From Anaeromyxobacter dehalogenans 2CP-C (GTDB taxonomy: Bacteria > Myxococcota > Myxococcia > Myxococcales > Anaeromyxobacteraceae), in the NCBI RefSeq assembly GCF_000013385.1, contig NC_007760.1:3570001-3634000 (forward strand): DNA of 64,000 nucleotides. Direction: 5' to 3'. The notes under the pieces are model-generated. The model was not told where the DNA came from and did not search any database. It saw only the letters and a program-made list of their open reading frames with translations. Every line of letters begins with the position of its first letter. The stretch's first letter is position 1. The position numbers and the translations under genes are program-made. Of this stretch, positions 21,297-26,319 are shown in pieces.

Positions 21297-21346
21297 GCCG
21301 TTCTCTCCGGTTCATCCGTCAAACCGGACGATCCTCCGTTGTCCGC

Positions 21347-21376
21347 TTGACAGGATTACCGTCCGTCATCCAAGAT
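21347..21376 (+). promoter_or_regulatory. Candidate promoter of the sulfur operon
   Basis: A perfect -35 TTGACA (21347-21352), an 18-bp spacer and CAAGAT (21371-21376) as a weak -10. The predicted start of transcription, about 21383, would lie just before the leader ATG at 21386. Confidence 0.5.
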
Positions 21377-21385
21377 GCCGTCACC

Positions 21386-21478
21386 ATGCGCTCCCCCGCT
21401 CCCCGGATCGACGCGCGCGCACGGCAGGTGCGGTGCACCTGTCGCCGGCCGGCGCCTCCCGCGCGAATGCGCGGCTGA
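21386..21478 (+). CDS. Putative cysteine-sensing leader peptide
   Basis: A 30-codon frame (ATG 21386, TGA 21476-21478) between the candidate promoter and the yeiH-like gene. The peptide is Arg-rich and has Cys17-Thr18-Cys19 (codons at 21434-21442). The two Cys codons fall inside a perfect hairpin (21425-21441), and more stem-loops follow. A Cys-containing leader upstream of genes that make sulfide for cysteine is the layout expected of ribosome-mediated attenuation, known in actinobacterial cysteine-responsive leader ORFs and amino-acid operons. With a start of transcription near 21383 it would be nearly leaderless. Translation and function are inferred. Confidence 0.5.
   Translation: MRSPAPRIDARARQVRCTCRRPAPPARMRG
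21425..21441 (+). promoter_or_regulatory. Hairpin 1 over the leader Cys codons
   Basis: CAGGTGC-GGT-GCACCTG, a perfect 7-bp stem with a 3-base loop, covers leader codons 14-19 including both Cys codons. A ribosome stalled at the Cys codons would open it. Confidence 0.5.
21459..21474 (+). promoter_or_regulatory. Hairpin 2 at the end of the leader frame
   Basis: CCGCGC-GAAT-GCGCGG, a perfect 6-bp stem, lies just before the leader stop codon. It is enclosed by a possible longer pairing of CGCCGGC (21443-21449) with GCCGGCG (21481-21487). Confidence 0.45.
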
Positions 21479-21526
21479 GCGCCGGCGAGCGCCTCCCCCC
21501 TCTCCTCTGCTTCCCGCCTCAGCCCC

Positions 21527-21546
21527 GGCGCGGCCCTTGCCGCGCC
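21527..21546 (+). promoter_or_regulatory. Hairpin 3 next to the yeiH ribosome-binding site
   Basis: GGCGCGGC-CCTT-GCCGCGCC, a perfect 8-bp stem, ends 4 bases before the GGAG ribosome-binding site of the ATG at 21561. It could act as a terminator-like or sequestering element in the proposed attenuator. Confidence 0.5.
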
Positions 21547-21560
21547 CGATGGAGATCTCC

Positions 21561-22898
21561 ATGTCGAAGGCCGTCACCGCAGCCCTCCCCTGGCACCGTC
21601 GCGAGGACACCTGGGCGATCCTGATCGCGCTCGGGCTGGTCCTCGCGGTCACCACCGCGTTCTTCCTGGGCGGCGCGCGCGCCGTCTCGGCCACCGCGCT
21701 CTCGTTCCCGACCTGGTCCGACGGCGGCAAGCTCCTGGGCGCCGTCGGCGCGAACCCGCTCGCGCCGCTGGCGCTGTTCGCGACGTTCCTGGCGGCGTTC
21801 TCCGTGGCGTCCCTCGTGATCGGCTGGGACGTCGCCCGGTACGCGGCCGGGTTCGCGCTCCTGTTCGCGTTCTCGATCGTGGTGACCGCGCTCGGCTCGA
21901 ACGCCCTGCTGAAGCAGTGGCAGCTCGAGACGCCGCTGCTGGCGCTCGGGGCGGGGATGCTGCTCGGCAACGCGGTGACGCTGCCCGCCTGGTTCCAGTC
22001 GGCGCTCCGCACCGAGTTCTACGTGAAGGTCGGCATCGTGCTGATGGGCGCCACGCTGCCGTTCACCATCATCCTGGAGGCCGGCCCGCTCGCCATCGCC
22101 CAGGCCACCCTGGTCGCGGTCACCACCTTCCTCGCCATCCACCTCGCCGCCACGCGCCTGTTCGGGCTCGATCCGCGCTTCGCGGCCACGCTCGGCGCCG
22201 GCGGCTCGATCTGCGGCGTGTCGGCCGCGATCGCCATCGGGGGCGCGTGCCGGGCGGAGAAGTCCCACGTCTCGGTCGCCATCTCGTTGGTCATCCTGTG
22301 GGCGGTGGCGATGATCTTCGCGCTGCCGTTCGCCTGCCGGGCGCTCGGGCTCGCGCCCGGGGTGGCCGGCGCCTGGATCGGCACCTCCGAGTTCGCCGAC
22401 GCGGCCGGGTTCGCCGCCGCCTCGGCGCTGGGCGACGAGCGCGCGGTGAAGACCTTCACGCTCATGAAGGTGGTGGGCCGCGACATGTTCGTGGGCGTCT
22501 GGGCGCTGGTGGTGGCGTTCCTCTCGGTGACCCGCTGGGATCGCGAGCGCGCCGGCGCGCCGGAGAAGGTCGGGACGGGCGAGCTCTGGCGGCGCTTCCC
22601 GAAGTTCATCCTCGGCTTCCTGGCCGCGTCGCTGGCGGTGACGGTGATCCTCGCCTCGGTGGACTCCAGCGCCGGCACCCGCTTCGCGAAGGAGGCGATC
22701 GCGCCGCTCAAGAACCTGCGCGGCTGGGCGTTCACCTGGACGTTCCTGTCCATCGGCTTCACCACCCGGTTCCGGGAGCTGACCCGGTTCGGCTGGCGCC
22801 CGTTCGCGGCGTTCGCGGTGGGCGTGCTCGTGAACGTCCCGCTCGGCTACTGGCTGTCCACCCACGTGTTCGACGCCTACTGGCTCGCGGTGCGGTGA
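21561..22898 (+). CDS. yeiH: YeiH-family putative sulfate exporter/transporter
   Basis: A 445-residue membrane protein with about ten segments and the YeiH-family core LGAGGSICGVSAAIAIGGAC, then SEFADAAGFAAAS. YeiH proteins are annotated as putative sulfate exporters; their true substrate is not settled. Here the gene heads an operon for siroheme synthesis and sulfite reduction, which suggests a sulfur oxyanion. ATG 21561 has GGAG 6 bases upstream; ATG 21549 is an alternative. Expression is probably controlled by the leader described at 21386-21546. Confidence 0.85.
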   Translation: MSKAVTAALPWHRREDTWAILIALGLVLAVTTAFFLGGARAVSATALSFPTWSDGGKLLGAVGANPLAPLALFATFLAAFSVASLVIGWDVARYAAGFALLFAFSIVVTALGSNALLKQWQLETPLLALGAGMLLGNAVTLPAWFQSALRTEFYVKVGIVLMGATLPFTIILEAGPLAIAQATLVAVTTFLAIHLAATRLFGLDPRFAATLGAGGSICGVSAAIAIGGACRAEKSHVSVAISLVILWAVAMIFALPFACRALGLAPGVAGAWIGTSEFADAAGFAAASALGDERAVKTFTLMKVVGRDMFVGVWALVVAFLSVTRWDRERAGAPEKVGTGELWRRFPKFILGFLAASLAVTVILASVDSSAGTRFAKEAIAPLKNLRGWAFTWTFLSIGFTTRFRELTRFGWRPFAAFAVGVLVNVPLGYWLSTHVFDAYWLAVR

Positions 22899-22906
22899 GG
22901 CGCGAC

Positions 22907-23140
22907 ATGGTCCACCACGTCACCCGCATCACCGTGGACGCCGGGGCGCCCCGCGCCGCGGAGCTGGGCCGCGCGCTCGCGCAGCTCGGGTTCACCGTCC
23001 ACGCGGGGCGCCGGCGCCTGGTCGGCGAATCGAGCGAGGTGGAGGCGCACGACGCCAAGCGGCGGCTGCGCGCGCTCGGCTTCGCCGACCGGGAGTACCG
23101 CGTCTTCCTGGAGTACGTCCGCCGCTGGGGGGTGCTGTGA
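22907..23140 (+). CDS. Small conserved-looking protein of the sulfur operon
   Basis: A 77-residue soluble protein, basic in the middle and ending in YRVFLEYVRRWGVL. I do not recognise a family. It starts 8 bp after the transporter stop and its own stop overlaps the cysG start (GTGA), so it is translated as part of the operon. Codon use matches its neighbours, which supports a real gene. Size and position suggest an accessory factor, but nothing in the sequence shows which. Confidence 0.7.
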   Translation: MVHHVTRITVDAGAPRAAELGRALAQLGFTVHAGRRRLVGESSEVEAHDAKRRLRALGFADREYRVFLEYVRRWGVL

Positions 23141-24486
23141 CCGCGCCGCTCGTGCCGCTGTTCGTGAAGCTCGCCGGCCGGGACGTGGTGGTGGTGGGCG
23201 GCGGGGCCATGGCGGCGCTCCGCGTGCGCCAGCTCGCCGAGGCCGGCGCGCGCGTGAAGGTGGTCGCCCCGGAGATCCGCGAGGAGGTCGCCGCGCTCGC
23301 GACGGAGCTCGTCCGGCGGCCGTTCCGCGGCGGCGATCTCGACGGGGCCTGGTTCGCCGTGGCGGCGGCGACGCCGGAGGTGAACCGGGACGTTGCCCGC
23401 GCCGCCGAGGCGCGCCGCGTCCTGGTGAACGCGGTGGACGATCCGGAGCACGCCACCGCCTACACCGCGGGCGTGGTCCGCCGCGGCGACGCCACCGTCG
23501 CCATCTCCACCGGCGGGCGCGCCCCCGCGCTCGCCGGCCTGCTCCGGGAGGCGGTGGAGGCGCTGCTCCCGCCCGAGGTGGCCGGCTGGGTGGACGCCGC
23601 CGCGGCGGAGCGGCCGGACTGGAAGGCCGCGCGCGTCCCGCTCGCGGCGCGTCGCGGGCGCCTGCTCCGGACGCTGAACGCGCTCCACGGCGAGCCGCCC
23701 GAGGCGCCCGTGCCGCCCGGCCTGGTGTCGCTGGTCGGCGCCGGCCCCGGCGACGCGGGCCTGCTCACCCGCCGCGGCGCCGAGCGGCTCCGGACCGCCG
23801 ACGTGGTCCTGTACGACGCGCTGGTCGATCCCGCGGTGCTCGCGCTCGCGCCCTCGGCCCACCGCTTCCACGTGGGCAAGCGCGCCGGGCGCCCGAGCGT
23901 CTCGCAGCGCGCCATCGAGCGGCTGCTGGTGCGGTCGGCCCGCGCCGGCAAGCGCGTGGTCCGGCTGAAGTGCGGCGATCCGTTCGTGTTCGGCCGCGGG
24001 GGCGAGGAGGCGCTGGCGCTCGCCGCGGCGGGCGTGCCGTTCGAGGTGGTCCCCGGCGTCTCGTCCGCGGTCGCCGCGCCGGCGCTCGCGGGCATCCCGG
24101 TGACGCACCGCGGGACGGCGACCGCGTTCGCGGTGGTGGCCGGGCACGCCGAGGCGTCGTACGGCCCGGTGCTCGACGGCCTCGCGCCGGGCACGCTCTC
24201 GCTGGTGGTGCTCATGGGCGTGGGCGAGCGCGCCGGCATCGCCGCGCGGCTCCGCGCCCGCGGCTGGGCCGCGGACACGCCCGCGGCGCTCGTCCTGGGC
24301 GCGTCGGGCCAGCACGCCCACACCTGGCGCGGCCGCCTCGCCGACCTGGCCGGCCTCGCGCTCCCGCCGGACCGCGCCCACCTCCCCGGCACGCTCGTCG
24401 TCGGGGCCGTCGCCGCCCTCTCCCTCCGCTCCGCCGTCTCCACCGCACCGCAACCCGCCGCCCGCGCCGACGCGCGGCCGGCCTGA
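23137..24486 (+). CDS. cysG: Siroheme synthase (CysG-type fusion)
   Basis: A 449-residue fusion. The N-terminal half is a precorrin-2 dehydrogenase/sirohydrochlorin ferrochelatase (Rossmann motif VVVVGGGAMAALRVRQL near 15-31; NAVDDPEHATAYTAG). The C-terminal half, from about 192, is uroporphyrinogen-III methyltransferase (VSLVGAGPGDAGLLTRRG, VVRLKCGDPFVFGRGGEE). Together they turn uroporphyrinogen III into siroheme, the cofactor of the reductase encoded next. The GTG start overlaps the previous stop by four bases. A Pro/Ala-rich tail of about 15 residues is not part of the domain. Confidence 0.95.
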   Translation: MTAPLVPLFVKLAGRDVVVVGGGAMAALRVRQLAEAGARVKVVAPEIREEVAALATELVRRPFRGGDLDGAWFAVAAATPEVNRDVARAAEARRVLVNAVDDPEHATAYTAGVVRRGDATVAISTGGRAPALAGLLREAVEALLPPEVAGWVDAAAAERPDWKAARVPLAARRGRLLRTLNALHGEPPEAPVPPGLVSLVGAGPGDAGLLTRRGAERLRTADVVLYDALVDPAVLALAPSAHRFHVGKRAGRPSVSQRAIERLLVRSARAGKRVVRLKCGDPFVFGRGGEEALALAAAGVPFEVVPGVSSAVAAPALAGIPVTHRGTATAFAVVAGHAEASYGPVLDGLAPGTLSLVVLMGVGERAGIAARLRARGWAADTPAALVLGASGQHAHTWRGRLADLAGLALPPDRAHLPGTLVVGAVAALSLRSAVSTAPQPAARADARPA

Positions 24487-24498
24487 AAGGATACGCCC

Positions 24499-26319
24499 GT
24501 GACCGCCACGCCGCCGCCCGCCGAGCGCGACCGCCCCTCCTTCGCCGACGACGCCGAGATCTCCGACTTCCTCGACACGCTGGGCCGCTTCGAGCGCGGC
24601 GAGCTGGACGCGGAGGCCTGGCGCGCCTACCGCGTCGCCCGCGGCGCGTACGGACAGCGCCAGGACGGCGTCCACATGCTGCGCATCAAGCTGCCGCAGG
24701 GCGCGGTCTCCGGCGCGCAGCTCCGCGCCCTGGCCGAGGTCGCGAGCCGCTGGTCGCGCGGCTTCGGGCACGTCACCACCCGCCAGAACTTCCAGCTCAA
24801 CTACGTGCGCCCCGCCGACCTCGAGCCGGCCATGCGGCGCCTCGCCGAGGCCGGCATCACGACCTCCGGCGCCGGCGGCAACACGGTGCGCAACGTGCTC
24901 GCCTGCCCGCGCGCCGGCGTCTCGCCGGACGAGGTCTTCGACGTGACCCCGTACGCGGAGGCGTTCACCCGCCACTTCCTGCGCCACCCCCTCGGCGACG
25001 CGCTGCCGCGCAAGTTCAAGGTGGCGTTCGAGGGCTGCGCCCGCGACCACGTCGCGACCGCCATCCAGGACCTCGGCTTCCGCGCCCGCCTGCGCGACCG
25101 TGTCCGCGGCTTCGCGGTGACCGTGGCCGGCGGGACCTCGTCGGCGTGCACCGCCGGCGCGCCGCTCGTGGAGTTCCTGCCCGCGGCGGACGTCCTCGCG
25201 CTGGGCGAGGCGGTGATCCGCGTGTTCCACGCGCGCGGCGACCGCGCGAACCGCCACCGCAACCGGCTCAAGTTCCTGCTCCGCGCGCTCGGCTTCGAGC
25301 CGTTCCGCGCGCTCGTGCTGGCGGAGCTGGAGCAGGTGCGGGCCGAGGGCTCCCCGGCGCTGCCGTTCGACCCCGAGCGGCCGCCGGTCGAGGTCGCGCC
25401 CGCCGCCGCGCGCCCGCCGGCGCCGGCCGCCGCCGACCTCGCCGCGCGCGTGCGCGGCGCCCGGCTCGGCGGGCCCGGCGAGCCGCCGCCGCTCCGGATC
25501 GTCACCGAGCCCGCCCCGGGTGCGCTCGCGGCGTTCCGGGCCACCAACGTGCTCCCGCAGCGGCAGGCCGGGTATGCGATCGTCGCCGCCTCGCTCGCGC
25601 AGGGCGACGCGACCGCGGCGCAGCTCGAGGCGCTCGCCGCGCTGGCCGAGGCGTATGGCGACGGCGCGGCGCGCTTCACCAGCGGCGGGCACGTGCTCCT
25701 CCGCTGGGTCCGCGAGGAGGACGTGCCGGCGCTGCACGCCCGGCTCGCCGCCGCCGGCCTGGGGCGCGACGGCGCCGGGACCGCGGCCGACGTGGTCGCG
25801 TGCCCGGGCGCCGACGTGTGCCGGCTCGCGGTGACGCGGACCCGCGCGCTCGCGCGGCTGATCGAGGAAGCGGTGCGGCGCGCGGTCCCCGGGGCCGGGG
25901 CGGTGCCGCTGCCCGTCGCGATGTCCGGCTGCCCGAACGGCTGCAGCCAGCACCACCTCGCCGCCATCGGCCTGCAGGGCAGCGCGCGCAGGCTGGGGGG
26001 CCGCGCGGTCCCGCAGTACTTCGTGCTGCTCGGCGGCCAGGTGGACGCGGGCGGGGCCACCTTCGGCCGGCTCGCCGCCAAGGTTCCGGCGCGGCGCGTC
26101 GCGGACGCGGTGGCGCGGCTGACGTCGCTCTACCTCGCCGAGCGCCACGCCGGCGAGGACGCCGGGCCGTTCTTCGCGCGGAGCCTGGATCGCGCGAAGG
26201 CCGTCCTCGCGGAGTACGAGCACCTGCGGCTCGAGGACACCCGGCCCGAGGACTTCGTCGAGCCCGGCACCACCGAGGACTTCCGCCCGGGGGCGGACGC
26301 CGGGGAGCGCGCCGCGTAG
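24499..26319 (+). CDS. cysI: Siroheme-dependent sulfite/nitrite reductase
   Basis: A 606-residue two-repeat siroheme/[4Fe-4S] reductase. Cluster ligands are Cys435, Cys441 (CPGADVC), Cys478 and Cys482 (CPNGC). The N-terminal repeat has GHVTTRQNFQLNYV, the substrate/siroheme-binding pattern. The family includes ferredoxin-dependent sulfite and nitrite reductases, which cannot be separated by eye. The YeiH and CysG neighbours and the Cys leader favour sulfite (six-electron reduction to sulfide). The GTG start follows an AAAGGA ribosome-binding site 12 bp after cysG. No separate flavoprotein (CysJ) is present, so ferredoxin is the likely donor. Confidence 0.9.
   Translation: MTATPPPAERDRPSFADDAEISDFLDTLGRFERGELDAEAWRAYRVARGAYGQRQDGVHMLRIKLPQGAVSGAQLRALAEVASRWSRGFGHVTTRQNFQLNYVRPADLEPAMRRLAEAGITTSGAGGNTVRNVLACPRAGVSPDEVFDVTPYAEAFTRHFLRHPLGDALPRKFKVAFEGCARDHVATAIQDLGFRARLRDRVRGFAVTVAGGTSSACTAGAPLVEFLPAADVLALGEAVIRVFHARGDRANRHRNRLKFLLRALGFEPFRALVLAELEQVRAEGSPALPFDPERPPVEVAPAAARPPAPAAADLAARVRGARLGGPGEPPPLRIVTEPAPGALAAFRATNVLPQRQAGYAIVAASLAQGDATAAQLEALAALAEAYGDGAARFTSGGHVLLRWVREEDVPALHARLAAAGLGRDGAGTAADVVACPGADVCRLAVTRTRALARLIEEAVRRAVPGAGAVPLPVAMSGCPNGCSQHHLAAIGLQGSARRLGGRAVPQYFVLLGGQVDAGGATFGRLAAKVPARRVADAVARLTSLYLAERHAGEDAGPFFARSLDRAKAVLAEYEHLRLEDTRPEDFVEPGTTEDFRPGADAGERAA

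Follow-up and report, generated by a model that had tools for sequence, protein, structure and literature searches.

Leader peptides containing Cys codons have been described before the cys operons of actinobacteria, where a run of Cys codons lies near the stop codon, no conserved hairpin was found, and Rho has been proposed to act where no intrinsic terminator is obvious (PMC1262725). Mycobacteria carry leaderless polycysteine attenuators whose signal is the cysteine-dependent speed of elongation (Canestrari et al. 2020, as relayed in PMC9094748 and PMC9031893). In Rhodobacterales, uORFC-8-2 is a predicted Cys uORF attenuator before cysS, with tandem Cys codons at positions 14–15, hairpins of which the first covers the Cys codons, and, at its end, an intrinsic terminator carrying a U run (PMC8632094).

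We analyzed 64,000 nucleotides of the Anaeromyxobacter dehalogenans 2CP-C genome, a single contig of 5,013,479 bp (G000); this whole stretch, G000:C1:3570001-3634000, is referred to as the window. The cysteine leader at the locus examined here is real, conserved, and confined to the family; it is a new variant of a known switch type, of which we found no earlier report in this group. Like the actinobacterial leaders, it stands before cys operons with no obvious intrinsic terminator; unlike them, it has a conserved hairpin (hairpin 2) and either 7 or 11 codons from the last Cys codon to the stop. It shares with the mycobacterial frames, as the relayed accounts describe them, a short Cys frame heading Cys-metabolism operons at or near the transcript 5′ end (a position predicted here), and we propose the same signal. 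It differs from those frames, within the same accounts, in showing no homology that we could see, in usually having C-x-C with an invariant UGU instead of a poly-Cys run, in a conserved hairpin that encompasses the leader stop, in the lack of computational support for sequestration of the Shine-Dalgarno (SD) sequence, and in belonging to another phylum. The likeness to uORFC-8-2 lies in a Cys-codon uORF accompanied by hairpins, of which the first lies across the Cys codons; the position before cysS, the tandem Cys codons at positions 14–15, and the U-run intrinsic terminator of that motif have no counterpart here. As in trp- and his-type attenuation, regulatory codons lie in the leader and a hairpin is placed under the putative stalled ribosome, whereas neither an intrinsic terminator nor a supported antiterminator pair is present. 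Our literature search, conducted without most subscription journals, found no report of a Cys-codon leader in Myxococcota. A sequence-only reading of this DNA knew of no described case in this lineage; this holds for Myxococcota in the literature searched but must be qualified by the predicted alphaproteobacterial uORFC-8-2 (PMC8632094).

Promoter, leader frame, and operon in the window

The features of the locus, in window coordinates, are the following.

21315..21328, + strand: palindromic operator-like site TCCGTCAAACCGGA, upstream of the −35 element (identified by sequence only)
21347..21376, + strand: promoter TTGACA - 18 nt - CAAGAT, within the conserved block TCCGCTTGACAGGA-N6-TCCG
21386..21478, + strand: leader ORF MRSPAPRIDARARQVRCTCRRPAPPARMRG followed by a stop, 30 codons (open frame, conservation)
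21422..21444, + strand: hairpin 1, over the Cys codons (folding; partly conserved)
21434..21442, + strand: Cys-Thr-Cys codons TGC ACC TGT, with the TGT invariant in 15/15 copies
21448..21486, + strand: hairpin 2, outer stem 21448-21455/21479-21486, inner stem 21459-21464/21469-21474 (folding, conservation)
21489..21525, + strand: C-rich, G-poor linker, rut-like by composition only (C 60%, G 14% in the 35 nt tested)
21527..21546, + strand: hairpin 3, GGCGCGGC-CCTT-GCCGCGCC, before the SD sequence (folding)
21561..22898, + strand: yeiH-like transporter (PF03601), operon gene 1 (Pfam)
22911..23140, + strand: small ORF of no family, with a relative in G012 (frame)
23137..24486, + strand: cysG-type siroheme synthase (family match)
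24499..26319, + strand: siroheme sulfite reductase with an LPRKFK motif (substrate partly from established knowledge)

The closest PDB relatives of the operon's reductase are plant nitrite reductases, which have LPRKWN where the window protein has LPRKFK. We take K-x-K at this motif to mark the sulfite type of siroheme reductase and K-x-N the nitrite type; the motif therefore argues against a nitrite reductase identity, which we rejected, and the locus had been rightly described as a sulfur operon. Proteins of PF01507, the family of PAPS reductase and CysD, are absent from the whole G000 genome. The operon thus cannot serve CysH-type sulfate assimilation there, and the sulfite must have another source. 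Despite this absence, G000 retains both the sulfite reductase operon and the Cys leader before it, and cysD apparently lies under the same promoter in the relatives G001 and G004.

The promoter named in the sequence-only reading is present in the window (−35 TTGACA at 21347-21352, −10 CAAGAT at 21371-21376, spacer 18 nt), and the element is kept at 15/15 leader copies. A generic promoter scanner made no call at 21347-21376 because the −10 element is weak. Allowing at most one mismatch, the class TCCGCTTGACARGA-N6-TCCG has about 53 sites in 23 of the 24 family genomes, where a reversed-pattern control gave zero matches, and a single weak site with one mismatch (G055) in the rest of the phylum. 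The genes behind the other sites resemble cysK, cysD, metY, metQ-like genes, a sulfate-binding protein, osmC, and threonine-synthase-like genes; these names come from sequence resemblance, and some were checked against Pfam. A TCCGTTATAACGGA-like palindrome often accompanies the class, and in relatives similar TCCG-N6-CGGA elements occur near it at genes that include cysK and cysD. Judged by its sites, TCCGCTTGACARGA-N6-TCCG is a family-specific sulfur promoter/operator class before many cysteine and methionine genes.

The leader start lies 6–10 nt past the −10 element in all 15 copies (9 nt in the window), and no copy has room for an SD sequence before it. A transcription start 6–8 nt past the −10 element would leave 0–4 nt untranslated before the leader frame, which is probably near-leaderless. 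At G000:C1:526882 (L183), an OsmC-like gene behind this promoter also begins 6 nt past its −10 element; this promoter class may commonly give near-leaderless starts.

Leader copies and their target operons

Leader copies were gathered through yeiH orthologues, then with a covariance model, and then with the promoter pattern; cysK, cysE, and promoter sites were also inspected for Cys leaders. This yielded 15 copies in 14 of 24 Anaeromyxobacteraceae genomes (G000, G001, G002, G004, G005, G006, G007, G009, G011, G012, G014, G017 with two, G022, and G023), always directly after the common promoter. The copies are related by descent, and their counts are not independent events. Across 195 phylum genomes, the covariance model R1 gave strong matches in the family only, and the weaker matches that we inspected were without the leader layout. 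Scanning about 85,000 species with a sequence pattern returned nine family contigs, with named matches in Anaeromyxobacter terrae, soli, oryzae, and PSR-1, and one Bordetella match, which we rejected as a copy on account of its missing leader layout. Matches to GCGAATGCGC before genes of G035 and G039 fall on the C-terminus of an upstream protein and were set aside as coincidence.

The leader precedes yeiH-cysG-sir in the window and close relatives, and osmC-yeiH-cysG-sir in G012, G014, G017a, and G023. In G007 it is followed by cysG-sir and then by threonine-synthase-like, ThiF/rhodanese-like, and cysK-like genes; in G009 by a PAPS reductase (PF01507), an ATP-sulfurylase-like frame, and, further on, cysG-sir (cysH-sat-cysG-sir); and in G022 by osmC and a cysK-like gene. 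All copies therefore head sulfite-reduction or cysteine-synthesis operons. That the region is simply an N-terminal extension of yeiH, as the open frame 21375-22898 running into yeiH in the window might suggest, is extremely unlikely: the length of this open extension differs between relatives, and elsewhere the same leader precedes osmC, cysG, or cysH. The promoter stands without a leader before cysG in G003 (L138) and before yeiH in G010 (L047), indicating that the leader is dispensable in some lineages.

Two further arrangements were observed near this promoter. Behind the second G017 leader (L173, contig C23), the first gene looks like an osmC N-terminus fused in frame to yeiH, and this fusion, LSDQIQQAIQSS...ILPWHRREDTWA, has the appearance of a naturally arisen deletion between osmC and yeiH. 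Six relatives carry a SAM-II riboswitch (RF00521) after the same promoter and before a threonine-synthase-like gene (L154, L155, L159, L180, L189, and L192; 39–48 bits, all above the gathering score), and in several of the six the element lies directly behind sulfite reductase. Rfam labels the SAM-II class alphaproteobacterial.

The sequence-only reading had named failure of relatives to conserve the frame or its Cys codons as a refutation; conservation was examined directly, and no such failure was seen. The 30-codon frame with Cys-Thr-Cys that had been read from the window is present at 21386-21478 (TGC at 21434-21436, TGT at 21440-21442); its counterpart is kept in every copy, across leader lengths of 30–36 codons, always with at least one Cys codon. 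Cys accounts for 32/500 leader codons, compared with 130/15360 in gene-like frames across the window. UGU serves as the last Cys codon in 15/15 copies but makes up only 7 of the 130 Cys codons of the window genes. At least two Cys codons occur in 14/15 copies (CxC, CCC, CC, or C5C); the remaining copy, from the incomplete draft genome G022, has one. The patterns include CTC, CAC, CMC, CIC, and CPC, with CCC in G012 and G014, CC plus an early C in G007, and C-5-C in G017b, so that contiguous Cys codons are found in G007, G012, and G014 only. The intervening codon varies freely (T, A, M, I, P, or C), while the Cys codons themselves are retained.

The two close Cys residues of most copies could instead belong to a metal- or thiol-sensing nascent peptide of the CruR/CutF kind, with C-x-C acting as a motif and not as codons that sense cysteine. 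We consider this very improbable, as the number (1 to 3) and spacing of the Cys residues vary, unlike in a chelating motif, the targets serve sulfite reduction and Cys synthesis rather than metal handling, and the peptides match no family; an NCBIfam search with them gave no match.

Outside the Cys codons, the peptide drifts among copies. Mean pairwise identity is 0.78 in hairpin 2, 0.74 in the Cys codons, 0.41 in the 5′ part of the ORF, and 0.39 downstream. A peptide-level requirement for the PARMRG ending was considered and rejected. The conserved leader C-terminus probably reflects the RNA rather than the peptide, because G009 and G022 lose PARMRG yet retain hairpin 2.

RNA structures and the proposed mechanism

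Because this DNA is so GC-rich, folding of a single sequence proves little, and conservation is the test. The whole 201-nt leader is not significantly more stable than its shuffles (z −1.39). Hairpin 2 alone exceeds dinucleotide shuffles (z −1.9 to −5.5, p ≤0.07 across copies; z −4.6 in the window), and the second hairpin of the sequence-only reading is thus borne out at 21448-21486 and conserved in relatives. It encloses or abuts the leader stop codon across copies; in the window, the stop (21476-21478) sits on its 3′ side. The motif UGU-C-N4-GCCGG, found in 15/15 copies, means that the outer arm always begins 8 nt after the initial U of the UGU codon. Among the 12 copies found first, hairpin 2 is paired in 98% of alignment cells (24–55% in slid controls) with no double changes; this alignment varies hardly at all there and so cannot test covariation. 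In four of the more divergent copies, found later, the inner stem has changed with pairing kept, which does provide such a test: CCGCGC/GCGCGG is replaced by GCGGAC/GUCCGC in G009, GCCGG/CCGGC in G022, GGCCGC/GCGGCU in G007, and a bulged variant in G012.

The strong nucleotide conservation of hairpin 2, which extends to a rare CGA codon for Arg within the loop, is what one would also expect if the RNA were a structured element to which a protein or ligand binds, with an incidental frame and an irrelevant peptide and Cys codons. This alternative appears improbable. The frame and its start distance are kept through changes in length, the Cys codons persist at variable spacing outside the conserved stem while the codon between them varies, and no Rfam family matches. 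Rfam 15 gave no relevant match at the gathering threshold or at E up to 10.

The remaining structures are less uniform. Hairpin 1 had been placed exactly over the Cys codons; it is present in the window, but only 68% of alignment cells are paired, with some compensation, and it may matter among close relatives only. The alternative pairing of 21443-21449 with 21481-21487 did not survive comparison, with five of seven pairs broken without compensation in 1–4 of 12 sequences. The third hairpin was correctly located just ahead of the SD sequence of the first gene (21527-21546). Nearly all relatives have a strong hairpin of differing sequence at this position, which in many of them ends well ahead of the SD. 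The stretch behind the leader stop has a C/G ratio of 1.3–2.3, strongest in parts of the genus and G011 and mild elsewhere. No intrinsic terminator lies between the leader and the first gene in the window, and the relatives' leaders contain no U tracts.

Taken with the conserved frame, codons, and targets, these features make it probable that the locus encodes a cysteine-sensing translated leader peptide that acts by ribosome-mediated attenuation of the operon; translation, stalling, the sign of regulation, and the Rho read-out are parts of this model that we infer. The transcript would start only a short distance upstream of the leader ATG, by a few bases, and its short frame would be translated. 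With plentiful Cys-tRNA, ribosomes would move past the Cys codons and be released at the leader stop within hairpin 2; the hairpin would then refold, the C-rich untranslated stretch would be exposed, and operon expression would be cut back. With scarce Cys-tRNA, a ribosome would stall at the Cys codons, above all at the rare UGU, cover the 5′ outer arm of hairpin 2, and hold it open, allowing the operon to be expressed. A stalled ribosome covers about 12 nt ahead of its codon, and such a stall should keep hairpin 2 open because only 8 nt separate the start of the hairpin from the initial U of the UGU codon.

Among several possible read-outs, we rank a Rho-type mechanism first and an SD-based one second. 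Rho is the most likely single candidate, though a tentative one, and the C-rich linker hints at it. The same sensor could act by translational attenuation, with the stall exposing the SD of the first gene, as has reportedly been proposed for the mycobacterial leaderless polycysteine frames. The near-leaderless layout resembles that case, and hairpin 3 adjoins the SD in the window. We nevertheless regard this read-out as rather unlikely: SD accessibility showed no consistent change in constrained folds of the free, Cys-stalled, and stop-codon states, pairing between linker and SD did not exceed shuffles in any copy (p 0.17–0.97), and hairpin 3 lies well before the SD in many relatives. Pairing of the 3′ arm of hairpin 2 with downstream sequence was also not above shuffles overall, with G002 as the exception. 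The earlier attenuation logic thus stands in its conserved frame, codons, and targets, whereas its switch between mutually exclusive hairpins is not supported: relatives do not conserve the alternative pairing, and no consistent switch emerged from constrained folds or shuffle controls.

A probable cysteine leader in a putative sulfur regulon of the family

With a Cys-rich frame conserved before Cys genes, the locus would belong to the broad kind of amino-acid leader-peptide attenuators. It appears to work like the known Cys leaders yet fits the definition of none, having no intrinsic terminator, a mostly C-x-C arrangement, and a stop-enclosing hairpin. We tentatively suggest that it could represent a separate Anaeromyxobacteraceae class, defined by a near-leaderless frame, an invariant UGU, and a stop-codon hairpin with no terminator or antiterminator, and forming one layer of a two-layer sulfur regulon. 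If so, the same promoter/operator would be followed by a Cys leader at some operons and by a SAM-II riboswitch at others.

The unusual layout, with its near-leaderless start, fixed rare UGU, and stop codon inside a hairpin, yields predictions that are sharp and cheap, and the leader losses in G003 and G010 with the promoter kept provide useful natural controls. The occurrence of the leader before different cys operons and its loss in some relatives offer a natural experiment in switch evolution. Overall, these results suggest that Cys-codon attenuation has arisen again, outside actinobacteria and alphaproteobacteria.
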